DNA of 64,000 nucleotides. It comes from Magnetococcales bacterium (lineage in GTDB: Bacteria; Pseudomonadota; Magnetococcia; Magnetococcales; Magnetaquicoccaceae). This document shows, one piece after another, positions 31,434 to 42,225 of this stretch (position 1 is its first letter; each line of letters starts with the position of its first letter). The notes beneath the pieces are model-generated. The model was not told where the DNA came from and ran no database searches. It worked only from the letters and a program-made list of their open reading frames with translations. The DNA lies in assembly GCA_011089965.1 (NCBI GenBank), contig JAANAU010000018.1:1-64000 (forward strand), read 5' to 3'. Both the position numbers and the translations under genes were made by a program.

Positions 31434-31841
31434 CTAACAGGCCACCGGTTTTGAGATCCGGGTCAAGTCCATCAACAGGATCACCTCTTGTTCGTGGGCG
31501 TTGGCAGGCCAGGCCAGGGCGCACACACCGGGCAGTCTGGCGCGCATGGCGAGCAAAGGGGGCAGAGGATGGATGGTTGTGATGGGAAGCGTACTCAGGG
31601 TGACCGGACCGGTTACGACCCAACAGGCCCGGGCGTTGCCATCGGTCCATTCCAGCACCAGTCTGGGCGCGTTGTGCGCATCCGGGGAGAGTCCCGGCAG
31701 GGTTGTCAGATCGGACAGAGCAGGGTCAGGAGTGTCCGGATCCAGTTGCCGACAGGCCAGCACGGTACGTGCCTCCACGGCTGCCGGCCAGTTTCCGAGG
31801 CAAAATCTCACCACCTCCAGGGTGTGGTGGTGTGCGCTCAT
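31434..31841 (-). CDS. CheW-like degenerate scaffold protein
   Basis: Protein of 135 residues translated from an ATG that overlaps the cheW stop as ATGA. The start (HTLEVVRFCLGNWPAAVEAR) follows the first CheW strands, and the end ILLMDLTRIS resembles the last CheW strand, but the central conserved Arg-Gly is not evident. It is the last gene of the chemosensory operon. It may be a second coupling protein, like WspB beside WspD, or a regulator unique to this system. Low similarity makes the family call tentative. Confidence 0.6.
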   Translation of the reverse strand: MSAHHHTLEVVRFCLGNWPAAVEARTVLACRQLDPDTPDPALSDLTTLPGLSPDAHNAPRLVLEWTDGNARACWVVTGPVTLSTLPITTIHPLPPLLAMRARLPGVCALAWPANAHEQEVILLMDLTRISKPVAC

Positions 31842-32350
31842 CCCAAGCCACGTGCATATTGGGTCAGGATGGCATCCAGATCCAGCAGCGTGACCGGAAC
31901 CTCCCGATAACGCAGCACCCCCAGCGCCAGGGTGTGCCAATGGGCGGGCAGGGAGGTGGGCAGGGGTTGAATGGCACTTTCCGGCAGATCGAGTACGTCC
32001 AACACCCGATCCACGCGGATGCCGCTGCGGATTTCTGCACCTTGGCCCAACAGAATGGCAGCAGCCTGACCAGGCTCTTGTTCGGGAAGCTGCAACAGGC
32101 CATGCAGGCGGATCACGGTCTCCATGTCCCCCCGCACATTGACCACCCCTTCCAGCGAGGGCGGACAACCGGGAATGAAAAAGACCCGCGCCCGTGCCAG
32201 GATTTCACGCACCTTGTGACCATGCAAGGCAAACCATTGTCCGGCCAACTCGAAAATCACCAGTTTGACCAGCGGGTCATCCAGCTCGATGACCGTCTGA
32301 CGCACGGTGGTGGGTTGTGTAACGATCTGGTTGAGCGTGATCCCGTTCAT
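31838..32350 (-). CDS. cheW: CheW-type coupling protein
   Basis: Coupling protein of 170 residues linking the MCP to CheA. The CheW fold is clear: LVIFELAGQWFALHGHKVREIL, the conserved GVVNVRGDMETVIRLHGLL with the Arg-Gly at about 74, and the last strand VPVTLLDLDAIL. An extra N-terminal 30 residues precede the domain. It overlaps the upstream diguanylate cyclase gene by 4 bp and the following gene by 4 bp. Confidence 0.92.
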   Translation of the reverse strand: MNGITLNQIVTQPTTVRQTVIELDDPLVKLVIFELAGQWFALHGHKVREILARARVFFIPGCPPSLEGVVNVRGDMETVIRLHGLLQLPEQEPGQAAAILLGQGAEIRSGIRVDRVLDVLDLPESAIQPLPTSLPAHWHTLALGVLRYREVPVTLLDLDAILTQYARGLG

Positions 32351-34014
32351 TCTTCAATCACCACCCGGTTGCGACCACTGTTTTTGGCTTGATACAAGGC
32401 ATTGTCCGCTGCCTCACGCAGTGCATCCGAATGCGGGTGTCTGGAGAGGCTGGCGATACCGGCACTGAAGGTGCAGGTGAAACTCCCTCTGGTCGAGTGA
32501 AACTGCACCCTGCTGAAATCGAGTCGCAGGATATTGATCAATCGGGCTGCCCGTTCCGGGGAGACGTTGTGCAGAATGACTGCGAACTCTTCGCCGCCAA
32601 ATCGTCCCACCACATCCGAATGGCGCAACCTCTGCTGCAAAATGCGGGCAAGGGCCATAATCACCTGATCGCCGACCGGATGGCCGTGGGTATCGTTGAC
32701 CGATTTGAAGCGGTCGATGTCGATCATGCAGAAACACAACAGATCGCCCTGGCGTTGGGCATTGGCCATGGCATTGTCCAGCATTTGGGCGGTTGTGGTG
32801 TGGTTGAACAGACCGGTCAGACTGTCGCGGGTCATCAGGGCACGCAACGAGCGCATCCGTTCGGCACGGATGGTAACGGCAGAGATCAATGCCTCCGGGA
32901 TGACCGGTTTGGTGATAAACCCTTCTGCAGCGATGCGCATGGCTGAGTCCTGTTTTTTGCGGTCGGTTTCGCCGGACAGAAAAACAATGGGTAAACCGAC
33001 ATAATCCGGGATCTGCCGTATGATACGTGCCAGTTCCTGTCCGTGACAGGTGGGCATGTACATGTCCATCAATACCAGATCGGATCGGAACTCGCGCAAT
33101 TGATTCAGAATTTGCGTCGGTTCGTGCAGGCAGCGTGTCACCATGCCTGCCTCTTGGAGAATCAAGGCATGATATTCTGCAAGTGTTGGTTCATCATCCA
33201 CCACCAGAATCCGGAATGGATCGGAATGTTGTTTGGCGGTCACGGTGTCCAGGACCGAGACCAGGTCCATGGCACGCACCGGTTTGAGGAAATAGGCATC
33301 TCCTCCGGCACGTACCGCAGCCAGACGGGCGGCAAAGTCGCTGCGTCCAGAGAGAAAGATCGTCGGGATATGGGCACCGCTTTCGCTTTGCAAGGCAGCC
33401 ATGGCATTGGTTCCGGCATCCGGATCATCGGGAAAGATGATATCCATGATTGCCGCATCCGGTGGATGGGTACGTACGGCGGCCAGAAACTCTTCCGGAT
33501 CTCTGAAGGTCTCCATCTTGAAGCCAAAACACTGCAATTGATAGGAGAGTTGCTCCAGGATCAACGGATCGTCATCGCACAGATAAATCCGTCGTTCCGG
33601 GTGGGAAATGTCTTGTGGCATGGATTCGGCTTGCCAGGCAGAGGGTGCGGCTTCCATGCTGGAGAGAGAAAGCGCGCTTTTGTCGCCCATTGATGTCAAC
33701 AGATCGAAATATTTTTCCATCTGTTCCATCCAGTCTGCCAGTTGTCGCTTTTCCGGAGACTCCAGAAGACGAGCGGTCCAGCTCTCTGCCTGGGCTGCTG
33801 CGACACCCAGTTCACGCATCCCAAAAGAGCGGCCTGTGCCTTTGATGCCATGAAAAAAACGATGCAACTCTTCAATGACCACCAAATTGTCGGGTTGTCC
33901 GTACAAAAGATGCATCTGCTCCCTGGCCTGACGAATCCGTTCTGGCAACTGCTCCATGAAGCTCGTGCGCAGGCGCAGGATTTTTTCGCGTACGGTTTCC
34001 GGTTGGGTGGTCAT
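32347..34014 (-). CDS. Output protein Hpt-REC-REC-GGDEF (diguanylate cyclase)
   Basis: Response regulator of 555 residues. An N-terminal Hpt-like helical bundle carries HGIKGTGRSFG near residue 54; REC1 is about 139-255 with phospho-acceptor Asp in IMDIIF; REC2 about 265-385 with VLMDMYMP; the GGDEF domain about 395-550 has TRDSLTGLFNH and RFGGEEFAV, with an inhibitory-site RHSD exactly five residues before GGEEF. It should make c-di-GMP when phosphorylated and be product-inhibited. Position between cheA/cheY-like and cheW makes it the WspR counterpart, though WspR has one REC and no Hpt. Confidence 0.92.
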   Translation of the reverse strand: MTTQPETVREKILRLRTSFMEQLPERIRQAREQMHLLYGQPDNLVVIEELHRFFHGIKGTGRSFGMRELGVAAAQAESWTARLLESPEKRQLADWMEQMEKYFDLLTSMGDKSALSLSSMEAAPSAWQAESMPQDISHPERRIYLCDDDPLILEQLSYQLQCFGFKMETFRDPEEFLAAVRTHPPDAAIMDIIFPDDPDAGTNAMAALQSESGAHIPTIFLSGRSDFAARLAAVRAGGDAYFLKPVRAMDLVSVLDTVTAKQHSDPFRILVVDDEPTLAEYHALILQEAGMVTRCLHEPTQILNQLREFRSDLVLMDMYMPTCHGQELARIIRQIPDYVGLPIVFLSGETDRKKQDSAMRIAAEGFITKPVIPEALISAVTIRAERMRSLRALMTRDSLTGLFNHTTTAQMLDNAMANAQRQGDLLCFCMIDIDRFKSVNDTHGHPVGDQVIMALARILQQRLRHSDVVGRFGGEEFAVILHNVSPERAARLINILRLDFSRVQFHSTRGSFTCTFSAGIASLSRHPHSDALREAADNALYQAKNSGRNRVVIEE

Positions 34015-34023
34015 GGGTGTTAT

Positions 34024-34392
34024 TTATGGTTGGGATGTGCGGGTCAACACCTCGGTGATGAGCGTGGGCAGGCTCTCTTCCAGGGTGAAATCCTTGGTGA
34101 GACACCCATCCAGACGTGGCTCCCGGCTGAGTGGGCCTTCCGGTTCATCGCCGGTCAACAGGATGAACGGGAGTTGGATCCCTTGCTCCCGGATTTCGCG
34201 AAACAGGTCGATTCCGGAGAGCAGAGGCATGTTCATGTCGCTGATGATCAGGTCAAAGGGAGGGAGACTCTCCAAAGCGGCCAGAGCTTCCATGCCATTT
34301 TCCGTCTGGTGGACCTCGTGACCATTGCCTTCCAGTACGGCCAGGATCATCTCACCAGCCACCGGATCGTCTTCCACTACCAGAATGCGCAT
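34024..34392 (-). CDS. Single-domain response regulator (CheY-like)
   Basis: Stand-alone receiver of 122 residues: acidic pocket VVEDDP at the N-terminus, phospho-acceptor Asp in LIISDMNMP near 54, Thr in LLTGDEP near 83, and Lys in LTKDFT near 103. With no output domain it may relay or drain phosphate from CheA to other proteins. It is 15 bp after cheA and 9 bp before the cyclase gene. A separate receiver is an addition to the standard Wsp gene set. Confidence 0.9.
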   Translation of the reverse strand: MRILVVEDDPVAGEMILAVLEGNGHEVHQTENGMEALAALESLPPFDLIISDMNMPLLSGIDLFREIREQGIQLPFILLTGDEPEGPLSREPRLDGCLTKDFTLEESLPTLITEVLTRTSQP

Positions 34393-34407: not shown

Positions 34408-36579
34408 TCATTCGCGTCCGCGCCAACCCAGGAGGCTGCGCAAGGTTTCCACCAGATTGCCCTGACTGAAGTCCCCCTTGACCAGATAGGCATCGGCCCC
34501 GACCTGCATGCCGCGACGTTTGTCTTCGTCTTTGGCGCGCGAAGTGAGAATGATGATCGGTTTGTCCCGATATCTGGCATTCTGGCGCAGACGCTCGGTC
34601 AAGGTGAAACCATCCATGCCCGGCATTTCCACATCGGTCAGGATGGCATCGAACGGGTTCTCCTGGGCCAGCCGCAACCCTTCCAGCCCGTCGCCAGCCA
34701 GTGTGACCTGGAACCCGCAGCTCTCCAAAAGTTCTTTTTCTATTTCCCGGGTGTTGAGAGAGTCATCCACCACCAAGACCCGATCAGGCGGCAGTTGGGT
34801 TGTCGTCCCGGCAGTGCGCGTTCCGGCCCGCAAGTGCCGTGCCCGTTCAAACAGCTCCGGGACATGCAGTATCGAAACCAGTTCGTGGTTGCCAGTCACC
34901 ACCAGGCCGGAAACCAGAGGCAATTTCCGCAACAAGGGTGGCAGAGGATGGATCACCATGTCGTGTTCATCCAGCAGCGCATCCACGATGATGGCAATTT
35001 TATTATGAACAGAGGTCAGGATCACCGCCAGTATGCCGGAGGTTTGCCGGTTGGGAAAGTGTACATCTGCGTCTGAGGCAAAATCGTGACTGGGCAACTC
35101 CAGCAGTGTGGCCAAAGGCAAAAGCGGAATAAACTCATTGCGCACCACGATCACTTCGCGTTCTGCCAGGGTCATGCGGGCAGAGGCGGGGACGCGCAGC
35201 ATCTCTGCCACATATTGCGAGGTAAAGCCAAATGTGACTCCGGCGGTTTCCACCATCAACACGCGCATCATGGCCAGAGAGAGAGGCAGGCGCAACGTGA
35301 ACGTGGTGCCGCTGCCTGGCCGGGTTGCAACCGTCACCGTACCACGCAGATCATTGGAGATGGTTTGCCTGACCACATCCATGCCCACACCCCGGCCCGA
35401 CATGTCGGTGACAAAGGTGCTGGTGGAAAATCCGGGCAGAAAGATCAGCTCCAGCGTCTCCAGCTCTCCCAGGGTGTGTGCCTTGTCCGGAGGGACAAGA
35501 CCCATGCGTACAGCTTTGGAACGGACAGCCTCCAGCCCGATCCCTTTGCCGTCATCTGCAACTTCTATCACCACCCACCCCCCATCCTGACGTGCGGAGA
35601 GTGTCAGGGTGCCCTGAGGGAGTTTGCCCACGGCTGTGCGCTCTTCCGGAAGTTCCAGACCGTGATCAATGGCATTGCGGATCAGGTGAATGATCGGATC
35701 GGACAGCTTGTCGATGATGCGACGATCCAGTTCGATCCCGGCCCCTTGAATGTGGCAGATCGCCTGCTTGCCTATCGAGCGGGCCAATCCCCGGGCCAAC
35801 CGTTCGGCGGGCTCCAGAATCAAAGAGAGGGGCAGCATGCGCATCAACAGGGTTTTGTCGTGCAAGGCGACCATCAACGACTCCTGATCCAACACATCTT
35901 CGCGCAGGGTTCGGGAGAAGTGATGCAACTGCATGGCCAGCGGGTGATCCAACAACAAGGCAGAAATGCGGTGTTCCAGGGTGTTCAATTCCATGGTCCG
36001 CTGTCGCAGATGGGCGTGTCCGGAGAGCAACTCCCCCATCAGTTTGGTCAACTCATCCAGTTTCTCCAGACGGACCCGAATGGTATCTTCGGTCTTCAGT
36101 CGGGGTGCGGCCAAACCGTCATCGGGTGTGGTGCGGACCGGACGCGTGGTGGCGACAGCAGGTGCCACAGGAGGCGCGGAGGTGACCGGAGTGGGGATGG
36201 CGAGCTGTTGCAACTCTTCCAGCAGGGTTGGATCGGCTTGCGGGAGCAGGGTGCCATCCGGAGTCTCGGCCAAACGATCCACCAGGGCGGCAATGGCGTC
36301 GATGGCGGTCTGGAGACCGGTGATGCGCTCTGCGGACAGGGTGAGGGTGCTGTTGCGCAAACCATCCATCACCTCTTCGACCCGATGGGCGATCTCGGTG
36401 ATCGGGGTGAGTTTGAGCATGCGCGAAGAGCCTTTGATGGTGTGCGCCGAACGGAAAATCGCATGCACCTGAGCGGAATCTTCGCCATTCATGGACTCCA
36501 GACCCTGATGAATCTGACGGATATGGTCGCGCGCCTCCTCGACAAAGCGTCCGATGAATTTCTTGAGGTCAATGGCCAT
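34408..36579 (-). CDS. cheA: Hybrid chemotaxis histidine kinase CheA-REC (WspE-like)
   Basis: CheA-type kinase of 723 residues. P1/Hpt has the phospho-His46 in FRSAHTIKGSS; an Ala/Thr/Pro-rich linker (about 130-160) leads to dimerisation and ATPase domains with LIRNAIDHGLELPEE (N box), VADDGKGIG and MSGRGVGMDVV; a CheW-like P5 domain follows; the C-terminal receiver (about 600-720) has VLVVDDS and ILTDVEMPGMDG. The fused receiver is the hallmark of WspE and other alternative-function systems. The gene starts 3 bp after the end of the cheR frame. Confidence 0.94.
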   Translation of the reverse strand: MAIDLKKFIGRFVEEARDHIRQIHQGLESMNGEDSAQVHAIFRSAHTIKGSSRMLKLTPITEIAHRVEEVMDGLRNSTLTLSAERITGLQTAIDAIAALVDRLAETPDGTLLPQADPTLLEELQQLAIPTPVTSAPPVAPAVATTRPVRTTPDDGLAAPRLKTEDTIRVRLEKLDELTKLMGELLSGHAHLRQRTMELNTLEHRISALLLDHPLAMQLHHFSRTLREDVLDQESLMVALHDKTLLMRMLPLSLILEPAERLARGLARSIGKQAICHIQGAGIELDRRIIDKLSDPIIHLIRNAIDHGLELPEERTAVGKLPQGTLTLSARQDGGWVVIEVADDGKGIGLEAVRSKAVRMGLVPPDKAHTLGELETLELIFLPGFSTSTFVTDMSGRGVGMDVVRQTISNDLRGTVTVATRPGSGTTFTLRLPLSLAMMRVLMVETAGVTFGFTSQYVAEMLRVPASARMTLAEREVIVVRNEFIPLLPLATLLELPSHDFASDADVHFPNRQTSGILAVILTSVHNKIAIIVDALLDEHDMVIHPLPPLLRKLPLVSGLVVTGNHELVSILHVPELFERARHLRAGTRTAGTTTQLPPDRVLVVDDSLNTREIEKELLESCGFQVTLAGDGLEGLRLAQENPFDAILTDVEMPGMDGFTLTERLRQNARYRDKPIIILTSRAKDEDKRRGMQVGADAYLVKGDFSQGNLVETLRSLLGWRGRE

Positions 36580-36582
36580 GGT

Positions 36583-38040
36583 TCATCTCGCGTTGCCTCG
36601 CTCCATGGCTGGAAGGTTTTGCATCAGTTTGGTCTGGCACAACAGACGCACTTCGGCCATGGGCCATTCCAGGGGGAGATAACGCAGGCCGGTCGTTGGC
36701 ACCTTGGGGGCAGAGAGTTGCTGCATCACCACACGATAGCCGTGTCTGGCCCGTTCCCATTGATGACCGGCCAGGTAGAGGTCGGCCAGATGGTAGTGGG
36801 CTGGCCAACAGTCATGATGCCAGTAAATGGCCTGCTTGAACCATTGGATCGCCTCTTGGGGTCGATGTTGCCACTTGGCCACCAGTCCCAGCAGCAGCAA
36901 GGCATCGATGGAATCGGCATCCGCAGCCAGTGCCGAGCGGGCCAGGTTTTCAGCATCCGGGTACTATTTATGGATCATATGCAGATAGGCGCGCAGCAAT
37001 CGGGCTGGAACCGAGGCCGGGGTGGTCGCCAACATGCCGTCCAACAAGGTTGTGGCCGTGTAATACTGTTTGGCTGCCAGCGCATTGTGCACCGGTTCCA
37101 GATCATGCGTTGTCGGCGGCACGCTGTGCAGAGAGCAGGGGAGCGGGTTGGAGAGTGTGGTATTGCTGCTGATGGGGTCCAGATCTTTGGAAGAGAGGGG
37201 GGGCAGGGAACGGGAACCGTTTTCCAGGAGTGGAGCAGAGTTGAGAAAGATGTAGCATCCATCCTCTTCCACCAGGTGCAGTATCCCCAGATCATTGGCC
37301 ATGGTCTCCGAGGTGCCAGGGATCAGAATACCGTCCGGATTCAACAAGCTGGCCAGTTTTTCCAGAATGATGCGCCGTGTTGGCGCGTCAAAGTAGATCG
37401 AAACATTGCGAAACAGAATGATATCGATACGTCCGGGTTCCAGAGAGAGCGTATCGGCCAGCAGGTTGCACTCCAGAAACGTCACCAGAGAGCGTACCCG
37501 CTGATCCAGATGATAACCATCCGCTCCTTTATGAAAATAACGGCTGCGCAGCCCGGGATCCAGACCGCGAAACGAAAATTCCGAATAGCGGGCCAGTCGT
37601 GCCTTCGCCAGTGCTGTGCTGTCGATATCGCAACCAAACACCTGAAACAGTCGCCCTGCGCTTTCGCCATATCGCTCCATCAAGGCGATGATGATTGTGT
37701 AGGGTTCTTCGCCAGAGGAACACCCGGCACTCAACAGACGGATGGGGCCTTGTCCCTGTCGGGTGGCCAACAAGCGCGGAATCAACCGATTGGCAACCAA
37801 AGCAATTTGTTCCGGTTCGCGGAAGAAATAGGTTTCGTTGATGGTCAGACGATTGACCAGCTCCTGGAACTCCTGGGAGCGGGTCAGAAGCAGGGCATAA
37901 TAGCCATCAGGCCGGGTATGCAGAAAATCGATCCTTTCTTGCAAGGCGCGGCGCAGAATTGCTTCGTTGCCAGCCTCGAATTGCAGTCCGCAACGGTTTT
38001 TGATCAACTCCTTGAAAGGGGAGAGATCCAGCTCTTTCAT
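36583..38040 (-). CDS. cheR: CheR methyltransferase with TPR tail, interrupted by in-frame TAG
   Basis: MCP glutamate methyltransferase, WspC-like. The first 275 residues form a complete CheR domain: NETYFFREP near 69, the SAM loop LLSAGCSSGEEPYT near 103 and DIILFRNVSIYF near 206. A linker and TPR helices follow. Codon 359 is TAG (36966-36964, after HMIHK). Beyond it the same frame continues without another stop to 36583 with clear TPR sequence: YPDAENLARSAL, EAIQWFKQAIYWHHDCWPAH and LADLYLAGHQWERARHGY. So one 485-codon gene is split by a single codon; CAG to TAG is the simplest origin. Without readthrough, a 358-residue protein with an intact catalytic domain but a truncated TPR is made. 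It overlaps cheB by 4 bp. Confidence 0.9.
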
Positions 38041-39104
38041 GGTTGGCCTCCGGAAGTGAACACCGGACCACCTGACCTGGAGAGACGGATCATCTCACCG
38101 GCCATGGCCTCCAGGGGCAGAATCCGTTGGATGGCGCCGGCCCGAATGGCCGCCTGATTCATGCCGAAGATCATGGAAGAGGCTTCATCCTGGGCCAGGG
38201 TGATCCCTCCCCGTTCACGGATGCGCAACATTCCGGCTGCGCCGTCGTGGCCCATGCCGGTCAGGATGATGCCGATGGCGCGCGCTCCAAACCAGTGTGC
38301 CACCGAGAGCAGCAGGTGATCGCAACTGGGATGGTAGATGTCCTGGGCGCTGCGGGGCAGGAGGGCGATCCGGCTGGCAGAGGTGACGGTCAGATGGGCT
38401 TCGGATGGAGAGACATGGATGACGCCTGGCTCCAGCAGTACGCCATCCACGGCCAGACGTACCGGAAGACGACACAAACCGGATAACCACTCCACGATTC
38501 CGTGGGCAAAGCCGTCGGAGATGTGCTGGGCAATGAGAATCGGACAGCAGAAATCTTCGGGCAGATCGGGCAGAATGCGCGCCAAGGCCTGGGGTCCGCC
38601 CATGGAAGAGGCGATGGCGAACAGACGTGGATAGGCGTGGAGAGATGACCATGAGTGCTTGCTTTCCGGCATCCGGGTGGCAGCCGTATGACTCATCCGA
38701 CCGGGTCGCAGCCGGGTCACCACCGCAACTCCGGCCAGCAGTTGGACCTTGGCGATCAGTTGTTCTGCCGATGCCGCACCGATCTCCGGTTTTTCGATCA
38801 CATCCAGGGCACCAAGCCGCAACGCCTCCAGGGCAGTCGGAGCGTCGGTCAGGCTGCTGACCACCAGGATGGGTACGGCCTTGGTACACATGATCTCGGA
38901 GATGGCCTCCAGTCCGCCCATCACGGGCATCTCCAGATCCATGGTGACCAGATTGGGATGCAGTTGTTGCACCAGGGCGACCGCCTGTTGGCCATTGGTC
39001 GCCTCGCCGACCACCTCGATCCCTTCGACCTCTTCCAGAAGGTGACGCAACAATTCTCGGGCGAACGGACTGTCGTCAGCAATGACGATGCGAATGCGAC
39101 GCAT
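38037..39104 (-). CDS. cheB: Chemoreceptor methylesterase/deamidase CheB (WspF-like)
   Basis: Methylesterase of 355 residues that removes methyl groups from MCP glutamates when phosphorylated. The N-terminal receiver has IVIADDS, TMDLEMPVMGG and SSLTD. The C-terminal esterase domain has the catalytic Ser in AIASSMGGPQAL near 175, His in IAQHISDGFA and Asp in TGMGHDGAAGM. It lies 20 bp after the MCP gene and overlaps cheR by 4 bp. In Wsp systems loss of this protein locks c-di-GMP production on. Confidence 0.94.
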   Translation of the reverse strand: MRRIRIVIADDSPFARELLRHLLEEVEGIEVVGEATNGQQAVALVQQLHPNLVTMDLEMPVMGGLEAISEIMCTKAVPILVVSSLTDAPTALEALRLGALDVIEKPEIGAASAEQLIAKVQLLAGVAVVTRLRPGRMSHTAATRMPESKHSWSSLHAYPRLFAIASSMGGPQALARILPDLPEDFCCPILIAQHISDGFAHGIVEWLSGLCRLPVRLAVDGVLLEPGVIHVSPSEAHLTVTSASRIALLPRSAQDIYHPSCDHLLLSVAHWFGARAIGIILTGMGHDGAAGMLRIRERGGITLAQDEASSMIFGMNQAAIRAGAIQRILPLEAMAGEMIRLSRSGGPVFTSGGQP

Positions 39105-39124: not shown

Positions 39125-41041
39125 TTAAGCCTGATTGGAAAATTTGAACTGCCCGACCAATCCTTCCAGATGTTCTGACAACCCCAACATCTCCTTGCTG
39201 ATCTGTGAAATGCGCGTGATCGATTGGGCCGTATGGGAGCTGGCCGAGACGATTTCGCGCAAGGCGATCACCACCTGATTGCTGGCAATCTTTTGCTGTT
39301 GGGTCGAAAGTGAAATCTGTTGTGCGGCATTGGTGGTTTGGGTGGCCGCCTTGACGATCTCATGCAGTCTGTCGGCTGTATGACTGGTGGCCGTGGTTCC
39401 GGCCTGGATTCCGGCGCTTCCTCTTTCGGAGTTGACCACGAGACGGGTGATGGAGTCTTGAATTTCGTTGATTTTGCCCTCGATCTCGCGGGTCGATTCG
39501 GTGACGCTGTCGGCCAGGCGGCGGATTTCGCTGGCCACCACCGAAAAGCGTTTGCCTGCCTCTCCGGCGCTGGATGCCTCCAGGGCGGCATTGAATGCAA
39601 TCAGACGGGTCTGGTCTGCAACGGTATTGATGATCTCCATCACCTTGCTGATCTGTTTGGATTTGACCCCGAGATCGACGATCTCTTGCAGACTCCCCTG
39701 CCGCTCTTCGCGGATGTCATGCATGCGACCGAGAACGATCTGCATGGATTCTGTCCCTTTGCGACTCCCCTCCAGGGTCTGGGTGGCGATTTCGACCACA
39801 GAACGGGATTGTTCGGCAATTTCCGTGGAGGAGGCGGACAGCTCTTCCATGGTGGAGGTGATTTCAGCCACCGACGAGGACATCTGGGTGGAGGTGGTGG
39901 CCTGACCAGCCACGGCCTCGCTGATCTCCCGGGCGGCCTTGTGGACCTGGATGGCCCGTGCACCGACCTCAGAAGCCAGTTCATGGAGTTTGCGACGCAT
40001 TTCGGCAGTGGCCTGCGACAAGGCCGCCACCTCGTCACTGCCAGCCAGTGGCACCTCGATGGAGAGATCCCCGGATGCCACGCGATTGACCTCCGTCACC
40101 ACGGCATTCAGCCGATGCACCAGATGGCGGGCCACCACCATGGTCAACAGCAATCCGAACGCCATGGAGATTACGCCCATGGTCCAGGAGGTGAGACGCG
40201 CGGAGTGGAGCATGGCATAGTAGGTGGTTGACTCCATGGAGATCTCCACCACTCCGAGGGGGGTGCCGTTGAAATCCTTGATGCCGGAAGCCAGAATGGC
40301 ATGGGGTTCCCCGTGTATCTCCCGATGATCGAGTTGCGGGGTGTTCTCCAATGCCTTTTTCAGGGTGTCGGGTTCCAGAGTCGGTTTGGACCCCAAGGTG
40401 GAACCCAAAGTTTTGAAACCCTCCTTGTCCACCAGATGCAAGGCGATATCCACGCCATTCATCTGTTTGAAGCCATCAAAAAAGGGTTGTCCGATGTTCA
40501 GCCCGAATTCGACGGATCCCAGATGTTTTCCCTGGATCTGGATGGGAACCACGCCGCGTGCGCCCAACCCAGCGACACCTCCCTCCAGGCCACGGGTCGG
40601 TTTCAGCTGCTTGTTGGTGGTCACAACCGTATGGCGGAACGCGGAGAGATCATCCCCGAATTTTTCCGGTTTGTGGACCCGCAGCCAGGAGGTGGCTGGT
40701 GGCGTGTGAAACTGGAACTGTTCCACACCATATTCCTTGGTCATTATGGAGAAACCTGGGATGAAAAGCTCCCCGATGGCCTTGCGATCTCCTGTGGCAA
40801 ATTTTTCTTGCACAATCGGGATGTTGGCCACCAGGGCGCCCATCGCTTCTGCTGCCCGGCTTTCGGCAGCGATGGCATTATGAAAGGCTTTGAGATGGGC
40901 ATTCAGCGCCGTATGTTCGGACTCCAGGATCAACTCCCGCATGCCGGACAGATGCACCAGGGTCAATGAGACCCCAACCACGATGATGGCCAACCCCATT
41001 GCCAACATGATTTTGGCCCACAAACGTAAATGCAGCAGCAT
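39125..41041 (-). CDS. Methyl-accepting chemoreceptor with periplasmic Cache-type sensor
   Basis: Receptor of 638 residues: membrane helix 1 about 10-32, a periplasmic sensor of about 240 residues that looks like a double Cache domain (FIPGFSIMTKEYGVEQFQFH, then VPIQIQGKHLGSVEFGL), membrane helix 2 near 285-305, HAMP and a cytoplasmic coiled coil. The hairpin tip reads DQTRLIAFNAALEASSAGEA, with R-L-I-A-F in place of the N-L-L-A-L of classic receptors; the variant is typical of WspA-class receptors of alternative-function systems. It is the first gene of the operon, 67 bp after prfB with no obvious terminator between. Confidence 0.92.
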   Translation of the reverse strand: MLLHLRLWAKIMLAMGLAIIVVGVSLTLVHLSGMRELILESEHTALNAHLKAFHNAIAAESRAAEAMGALVANIPIVQEKFATGDRKAIGELFIPGFSIMTKEYGVEQFQFHTPPATSWLRVHKPEKFGDDLSAFRHTVVTTNKQLKPTRGLEGGVAGLGARGVVPIQIQGKHLGSVEFGLNIGQPFFDGFKQMNGVDIALHLVDKEGFKTLGSTLGSKPTLEPDTLKKALENTPQLDHREIHGEPHAILASGIKDFNGTPLGVVEISMESTTYYAMLHSARLTSWTMGVISMAFGLLLTMVVARHLVHRLNAVVTEVNRVASGDLSIEVPLAGSDEVAALSQATAEMRRKLHELASEVGARAIQVHKAAREISEAVAGQATTSTQMSSSVAEITSTMEELSASSTEIAEQSRSVVEIATQTLEGSRKGTESMQIVLGRMHDIREERQGSLQEIVDLGVKSKQISKVMEIINTVADQTRLIAFNAALEASSAGEAGKRFSVVASEIRRLADSVTESTREIEGKINEIQDSITRLVVNSERGSAGIQAGTTATSHTADRLHEIVKAATQTTNAAQQISLSTQQQKIASNQVVIALREIVSASSHTAQSITRISQISKEMLGLSEHLEGLVGQFKFSNQA

Positions 41042-41108: not shown

Positions 41109-42225
41109 TCAAGCAGACTGCTGCCCCTCTCCGATTCTCTGGGCAAGTGCAGCCTTGATGAAATCATCCAGATCGCCATCCAGCACGGCATCTGCCGCCC
41201 CCTTTTCCACGCCGGTGCGCAAATCTTTCACCAAGCGATAGGGGTGCAGCACATAGGAACGGATCTGACGGCCCCAACCGATCTCGCTTTTGGCATCGTT
41301 GACCAGTTTGGCCTCTTCGGCGCGTTTGTCCAGTTCCAGTTGATAGAGTCGCGCCCGCAGCATGCTGAAGGCTTCATCCTTGTTGCGATGTTGTGAACGT
41401 CCGTTTTGACACTGCACGACAATTCCGGTGGGAAAGTGGGTGATGCGGATGGCCGAGCTGGTCTTGTTGACGTGCTGTCCTCCGGCACCGGAGGCGCGAT
41501 AGGTATCGATGCGCAGATCCTTGTCTTCGATTTCGACCTGGATGCTGTCATCGATCTCCGGATAGACATACACCGACGAAAACGAGGTGTGGCGTCGCGC
41601 CGAGGCATCAAACGGACTGATGCGCACCAGCCGATGCACGCCGCTTTCGGTCTTCAGGCGTCCATAGGCAAACTCCCCTTCGATGCGCAGGGACACCGAC
41701 TTGCAGCCTGCCTCATCTCCGGGCTGGTAGTCGTTCATCTCCACCTTGAAACCGTGGGATTCGCACCAGCGCAGGTACATGCGCAACAACATGTCCGCCC
41801 AGTCCTGGGATTCGGTGCCGCCTGCTCCGGGATGGATTTCCAGAAAGGCGTTGTTGATGTCGGCCTCGCCGGACAGCATGCGTGCCAACTCCAGCGCATC
41901 GACCCGTTCCAGCAGGGTTGCCGACTGTTGGGCCACATCGGCCAGCAGCGCCTCTTCCTGCTCTTCCAGGGCCATGGCATGGAGTTCGCGCGCATCGCGC
42001 AACTCCCGGTCCAGATGTTCCCACTCACCGATGGTTTTTTCCAGGCGGCTTTTTTCGCGCATGACCTCTTTGGCGCGGGTGGGGTTGTTCCAGAGGGTTG
42101 GGTCTTCGGTAAAGGAGTTCAGCTCCTCCAGGCGTTTTTTTCCATGATCGTAGTTAAAGATGCCCCCTAAGGAGAATTAATTTCTCCTTGATGGCGTCCA
42201 GGTTGCGCGGAACATTCTCTTCCAT
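41109..42225 (-). CDS. prfB: Peptide chain release factor 2, with programmed +1 frameshift at UAA
   Basis: RF2 of 371 residues made from two frames: codons 1-23 from ATG at 42225 to CTT at 42157, then after skipping T42156 the frame 42155-41109. The junction protein reads LRGHL then NYDHGKKRLEELN, matching the RF2 N-terminus. The conserved GGQ lies in ASGAGGQHVNKTSSA, and the anticodon-like SPF in VRISPFDASARRH. Taken without frameshift, only a 317-residue fragment from an internal ATG at 42062 would be annotated. The shift-site stop is TAA, not the TGA normally found, so the residue encoded after the shift is Asn instead of Asp. The chemosensory operon follows 67 bp downstream. Confidence 0.93.
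42154..42168 (-). promoter_or_regulatory. prfB: prfB programmed frameshift site with UAA stop
   Basis: On the minus strand AGG GGG CAT CTT TAA C: an internal Shine-Dalgarno AGGGGG, then three bases, slippery CTT and a stop. It is identical in layout to the classic RF2 autoregulation site except TAA for TGA (and CAT for TAT). RF1 also reads UAA, so the sensing of RF2 level should be weaker. Confidence 0.85.

Follow-up and report, generated by a model that had tools for sequence, protein, structure and literature searches.

WspC of the Pseudomonas Wsp system is a methyltransferase in which a CheR domain is followed by C-terminal TPRs, and it is encoded in an operon together with a chemoreceptor (MCP), CheW, CheA-REC, CheB and a GGDEF output protein. 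A second CheR-TPR methyltransferase, FrzF, is found in Myxococcus xanthus. An engineered form of FrzF, cut before the TPRs, methylates three sites on FrzCD rather than one (PMC2535941), and WspC deprived of its TPRs binds SAM and SAH normally (PMC3447774). Wsp-type operons, which resemble the locus described below, are often hit by mutation during experimental evolution (PMC8552884, PMC4748119). In Wsp systems of the R type, the reported wspC mutations switch the system off (PMC8552884), and a tail-end fusion of wspC to wspD turns it on (PMC4748119).

Here, we describe a WspC/FrzF-like CheR-TPR methyltransferase gene of a Magnetococcales-like bacterium that is interrupted by an in-frame TAG codon, probably because a genuine, recent substitution of one base turned a sense codon, most likely GAG, into TAG. 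The gene lies in a window of 64,000 nucleotides within a draft genome of 80 contigs that is 98.87% complete and 1.03% contaminated. This genome is probably metagenome-assembled, like those of its named congeners, which are Magnetococcales metagenome-assembled genomes. The features of the operon are as follows.

39125-41041, minus strand: chemoreceptor with dCache_3, HAMP and MCP signal domains, intact (Pfam; 65-80% identity in the congeners having the gene)
38037-39104, minus strand: cheB, a REC-methylesterase that overlaps the cheR start (ATGA) (Pfam, conserved synteny)
36964-38040, minus strand: short form of cheR-TPR, 358 amino acids, from the ATG at 38040 to the in-frame TAG that ends the frame
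36964-36966, minus strand: premature TAG, an in-frame stop at codon 359 of the cheR-TPR frame, a sense codon in congeners
36583-36963, minus strand: TPR remainder after the stop, same frame, 126 codons and the natural TGA at 36585-36583
36583-36900, minus strand: sole possible long restart after the TAG, from a TTG 21 codons downstream (open reading frame list)
34408-36579, minus strand: cheA with a C-terminal REC domain (Pfam, sequence, synteny)
34024-34392, minus strand: single-domain response regulator (Pfam)
32347-34014, minus strand: Hpt-REC-REC-GGDEF output protein, a predicted diguanylate cyclase (Pfam; NCBIfam GGDEF model over its cut-off)
31838-32350, minus strand: cheW, overlapping the stop of the GGDEF gene (PF01584, E 1.7e-23; sequence, synteny)

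The order MCP, cheB, cheR-TPR, cheA-REC, REC, Hpt-REC-REC-GGDEF, cheW is found genus-wide as far as contigs reach, and every gene of the operon other than cheR-TPR is open and syntenic. The presence of a multidomain response regulator gene, that of the Hpt-REC-REC-GGDEF protein, places the cluster among those with alternative cellular functions. The Wsp system proper has two CheW-type couplers, WspB and WspD, whereas this cluster has one CheW gene; it differs further in its dCache_3 receptor, in an extra single REC protein and in the interruption of the methyltransferase gene. The output protein (32347-34014, minus strand) is built as Hpt-REC-REC-GGDEF, in contrast to the REC-GGDEF arrangement of WspR.

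The first-pass annotation of this DNA had proposed that a single TAG splits a CheR-TPR gene, and the geometry of the frame bears this out: 358 codons precede the stop, 126 open codons follow it, and the spacing to cheA is correct, with the cheA ATG (36579) lying three bases past the natural cheR-TPR TGA. In Pfam searches of the frame, CheR_N matches residues 5-53 and CheR residues 68-250. The latter match ends well before codon 359, in agreement with the earlier assertion that the short form retains a complete catalytic domain. A TPR_19 match at residues 320-383 straddles the stop when the TAG is translated as a residue, and the piece after the stop matches TPR_19 by itself (E 2.3e-9). The TAG thus separates domains that the congeners spanning the site encode within a single open reading frame. 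When the read-through frame was modelled with AlphaFold (mean pLDDT 87.8), CheR was placed at residues 1-266, followed by a disordered linker spanning roughly 272-310 and by ten helices starting at 315. In this model codon 359 falls between the helices at 344-356 and 360-373, and the helices before the stop lie within 315-356; the short form is therefore predicted to keep three of the ten helices of the TPR region, corresponding to the first TPR and the first helix of the second. Foldseek searches with the same model matched solved CheR structures and, more weakly, TPR proteins. No Shine-Dalgarno-like sequence was seen by eye at the TTG restart, and a consensus scan found neither a promoter nor a terminator around the TAG.

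Comparison with relatives indicates that the stop is peculiar to this genome. In the six congeners whose orthologs span the site, the gene is full length and free of stops, and the frame beyond the TAG aligns to its end with these orthologs at 54-63% identity, as against 54-64% for the CheR domain, a level at which saturation of synonymous sites is to be expected. A first scan of GTDB genomes with the full protein as query yielded no confirmed relative; a scan with an alignment of the TPR part yielded 65, at least five of which duplicate the congener records. No stop occurs at the site in any of the 65, and 63 of them have a frame of over 420 residues counted from where CheR begins, although relatives chosen through the TPR region are no fair sample of the rate of truncation. 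The aligned codon in the six congeners is GAG (three), GAT, GAA or GCA, and the commonest codons among the GTDB relatives are GAG (18), GAC (11) and CAG (11). These codons make a GAG-to-TAG change likelier than the CAG-to-TAG change suggested at first, which is disfavoured since no congener carries CAG. The broader suggestion, that one base change created a nonsense codon in a Wsp-like CheR-TPR gene, stands: the stop is unique and the homologous frame behind it is intact, as in natural nonsense (pseudogene) alleles, in which one premature stop, present in one genome only and absent from orthologs, is followed by continuing homology.

The state of the sequence behind the stop constrains its age. 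Under neutrality about two new stops would be expected over this region per 0.1 substitutions per site, and its 126 codons contain none, so that neutral divergence is bounded at an estimated 0.15 or so. Twenty of 22 strongly conserved positions are kept (the departures are residues 417, an H, and 466, an L), which argues for either a recent stop or an error in the consensus. In a protein tree, the branch of this genome for the part after the stop is some 1.4 times as long as the CheR domain predicts, a value matched or exceeded in 9 of 120 simulations; all simulations were run on a single fixed tree, weakly supported at three internal branches (38-48%), and these figures are approximate. For the part of the TPR region that precedes the stop (residues 316-358; 36967-37095, minus strand; 43 columns), the branch on this lineage is about 3.5 times that expected from the CheR domain. 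None of 120 simulations reached this length, and 6 of 13 otherwise invariant residues are changed. A recent stop does not account for the fast evolution of this piece.

Does TAG have a special meaning in this genome? Release factor RF1 (prfA) is intact, and no CUA anticodon was found among the 39 tRNA genes of the 98.87% complete genome, the missing part of which could carry one. In 1.18 Mb from nine contigs, about a third of the genome, TAG ends 36 of 366 long open reading frames. Genome-wide reassignment was accordingly rejected, TAG being an ordinary stop in the presence of RF1, and suppression, which had been put forward earlier, finds no backing in the tRNA complement, which was searched for a suppressor, or in RF1. 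The same 1.18 Mb was scanned for other split genes. A strict scan for same-frame continuation overlooked the cheR-TPR case, since the low-scoring linker lies among the 80 codons ahead of its stop; in a looser scan this case had the top coding score over the 30 codons behind the stop, and no competing frame scored better. No second convincing same-frame split gene was recognized by eye in these stretches. Six other flagged stop pairs were judged by eye and dismissed, most as antisense shadow frames by composition and two as ordinary gene ends.

Several other explanations were weighed against a recent nonsense change. An error in the consensus or assembly, with a sense codon and a full-length CheR-TPR protein in the true genome, is unlikely but is the most serious of them: the genome is a draft with some contamination, the sequence after the stop is intact and conserved, and a rare error would fit the finding of just one such split in 1.18 Mb. 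On the other side, lone substitution errors are unusual in a short-read consensus of adequate coverage. Programmed or leaky readthrough yielding two isoforms, also raised by the first-pass annotation, would account for a post-stop frame that still looks coding and shows no clear acceleration. We nevertheless regard it as very improbable. The base after the stop is U, and UAG-U is a context of low readthrough in yeast data that PMC5289835 cites; the 94 bases after the stop fold no better than shuffled sequences (z 0.65), revealing no stimulatory RNA structure; RF1 is intact and a CUA tRNA was not found; and the stop is present at the site in no relative, which argues against a conserved readthrough mechanism.

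The stop might instead be older and selected, a TPR-regulated CheR having been exchanged for a TPR-less one with changed site choice and a retuned chemosensory output. The acceleration of the TPR remnant before the stop, as if constraint there had been lost or changed, and the precedent of FrzF speak for such a history. The half after the stop should then show equal or greater decay, yet it has not decayed, and we consider an older truncation improbable. A recent nonsense change thus remains our preferred reading, and what is seen is most likely a lone nonsense allele of one assembled genome, a common kind of gene damage.

If a recent nonsense change is the cause, translation would end at codon 359 and yield a protein consisting of the full CheR domain, the flexible linker and three of the ten TPR-region helices. 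In contrast to ordinary nonsense alleles, the catalytic domain is complete, and residual activity is plausible. It could still methylate the chemoreceptor of the operon, with altered site choice or targeting, as in TPR-less FrzF. Alternatively, a half-folded TPR may destabilize the protein, in which case methylation would fall and the output of CheA and the GGDEF protein would be lowered. The results with FrzF, WspC and the wsp mutants make both outcomes possible. The earlier view that WspC needs its TPRs for targeting or full activity is not supported by the studies of WspC (PMC3447774) or FrzF (PMC2535941). The comparison is inexact: the present gene is truncated naturally and within the TPR region, whereas FrzF was cut ahead of that region, and the wsp mutants are laboratory or clinical Pseudomonas, whereas this allele is known from sequence alone. 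The overlapping or nearly abutting genes of the operon suggest translational coupling, and a stop lying some 385 bases ahead of cheA could consequently lower cheA expression through the loss of translation just upstream. It is improbable that the allele is an active, naturally TPR-less WspC/FrzF-like enzyme with altered choice of receptor sites, by which one base retunes a c-di-GMP-linked operon. Should the allele be real and expressed, nature would have supplied an equivalent of the TPR-less constructs engineered from FrzF and WspC, one that could help to clarify the role of the TPRs.

Just upstream of the operon lies prfB (41109-42225, minus strand), with a programmed +1 frameshift site at 42153-42168, AGGGGGCATCTTTAAC. 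This RF2 frameshift site reads CTTTAAC, TAA replacing the usual TGA. Matches to the frameshift motif outside the genus all have TGA, only some of them being placed in prfB by their sequence context. A 2025 survey found that TAA at the RF2 frameshift site is not broadly fixed in clades (PMC12421855). TAA is present in all eight genus members whose prfB 5' end could be checked, and judging from these sequences the genus may be a case of clade-wide TAA at this site.
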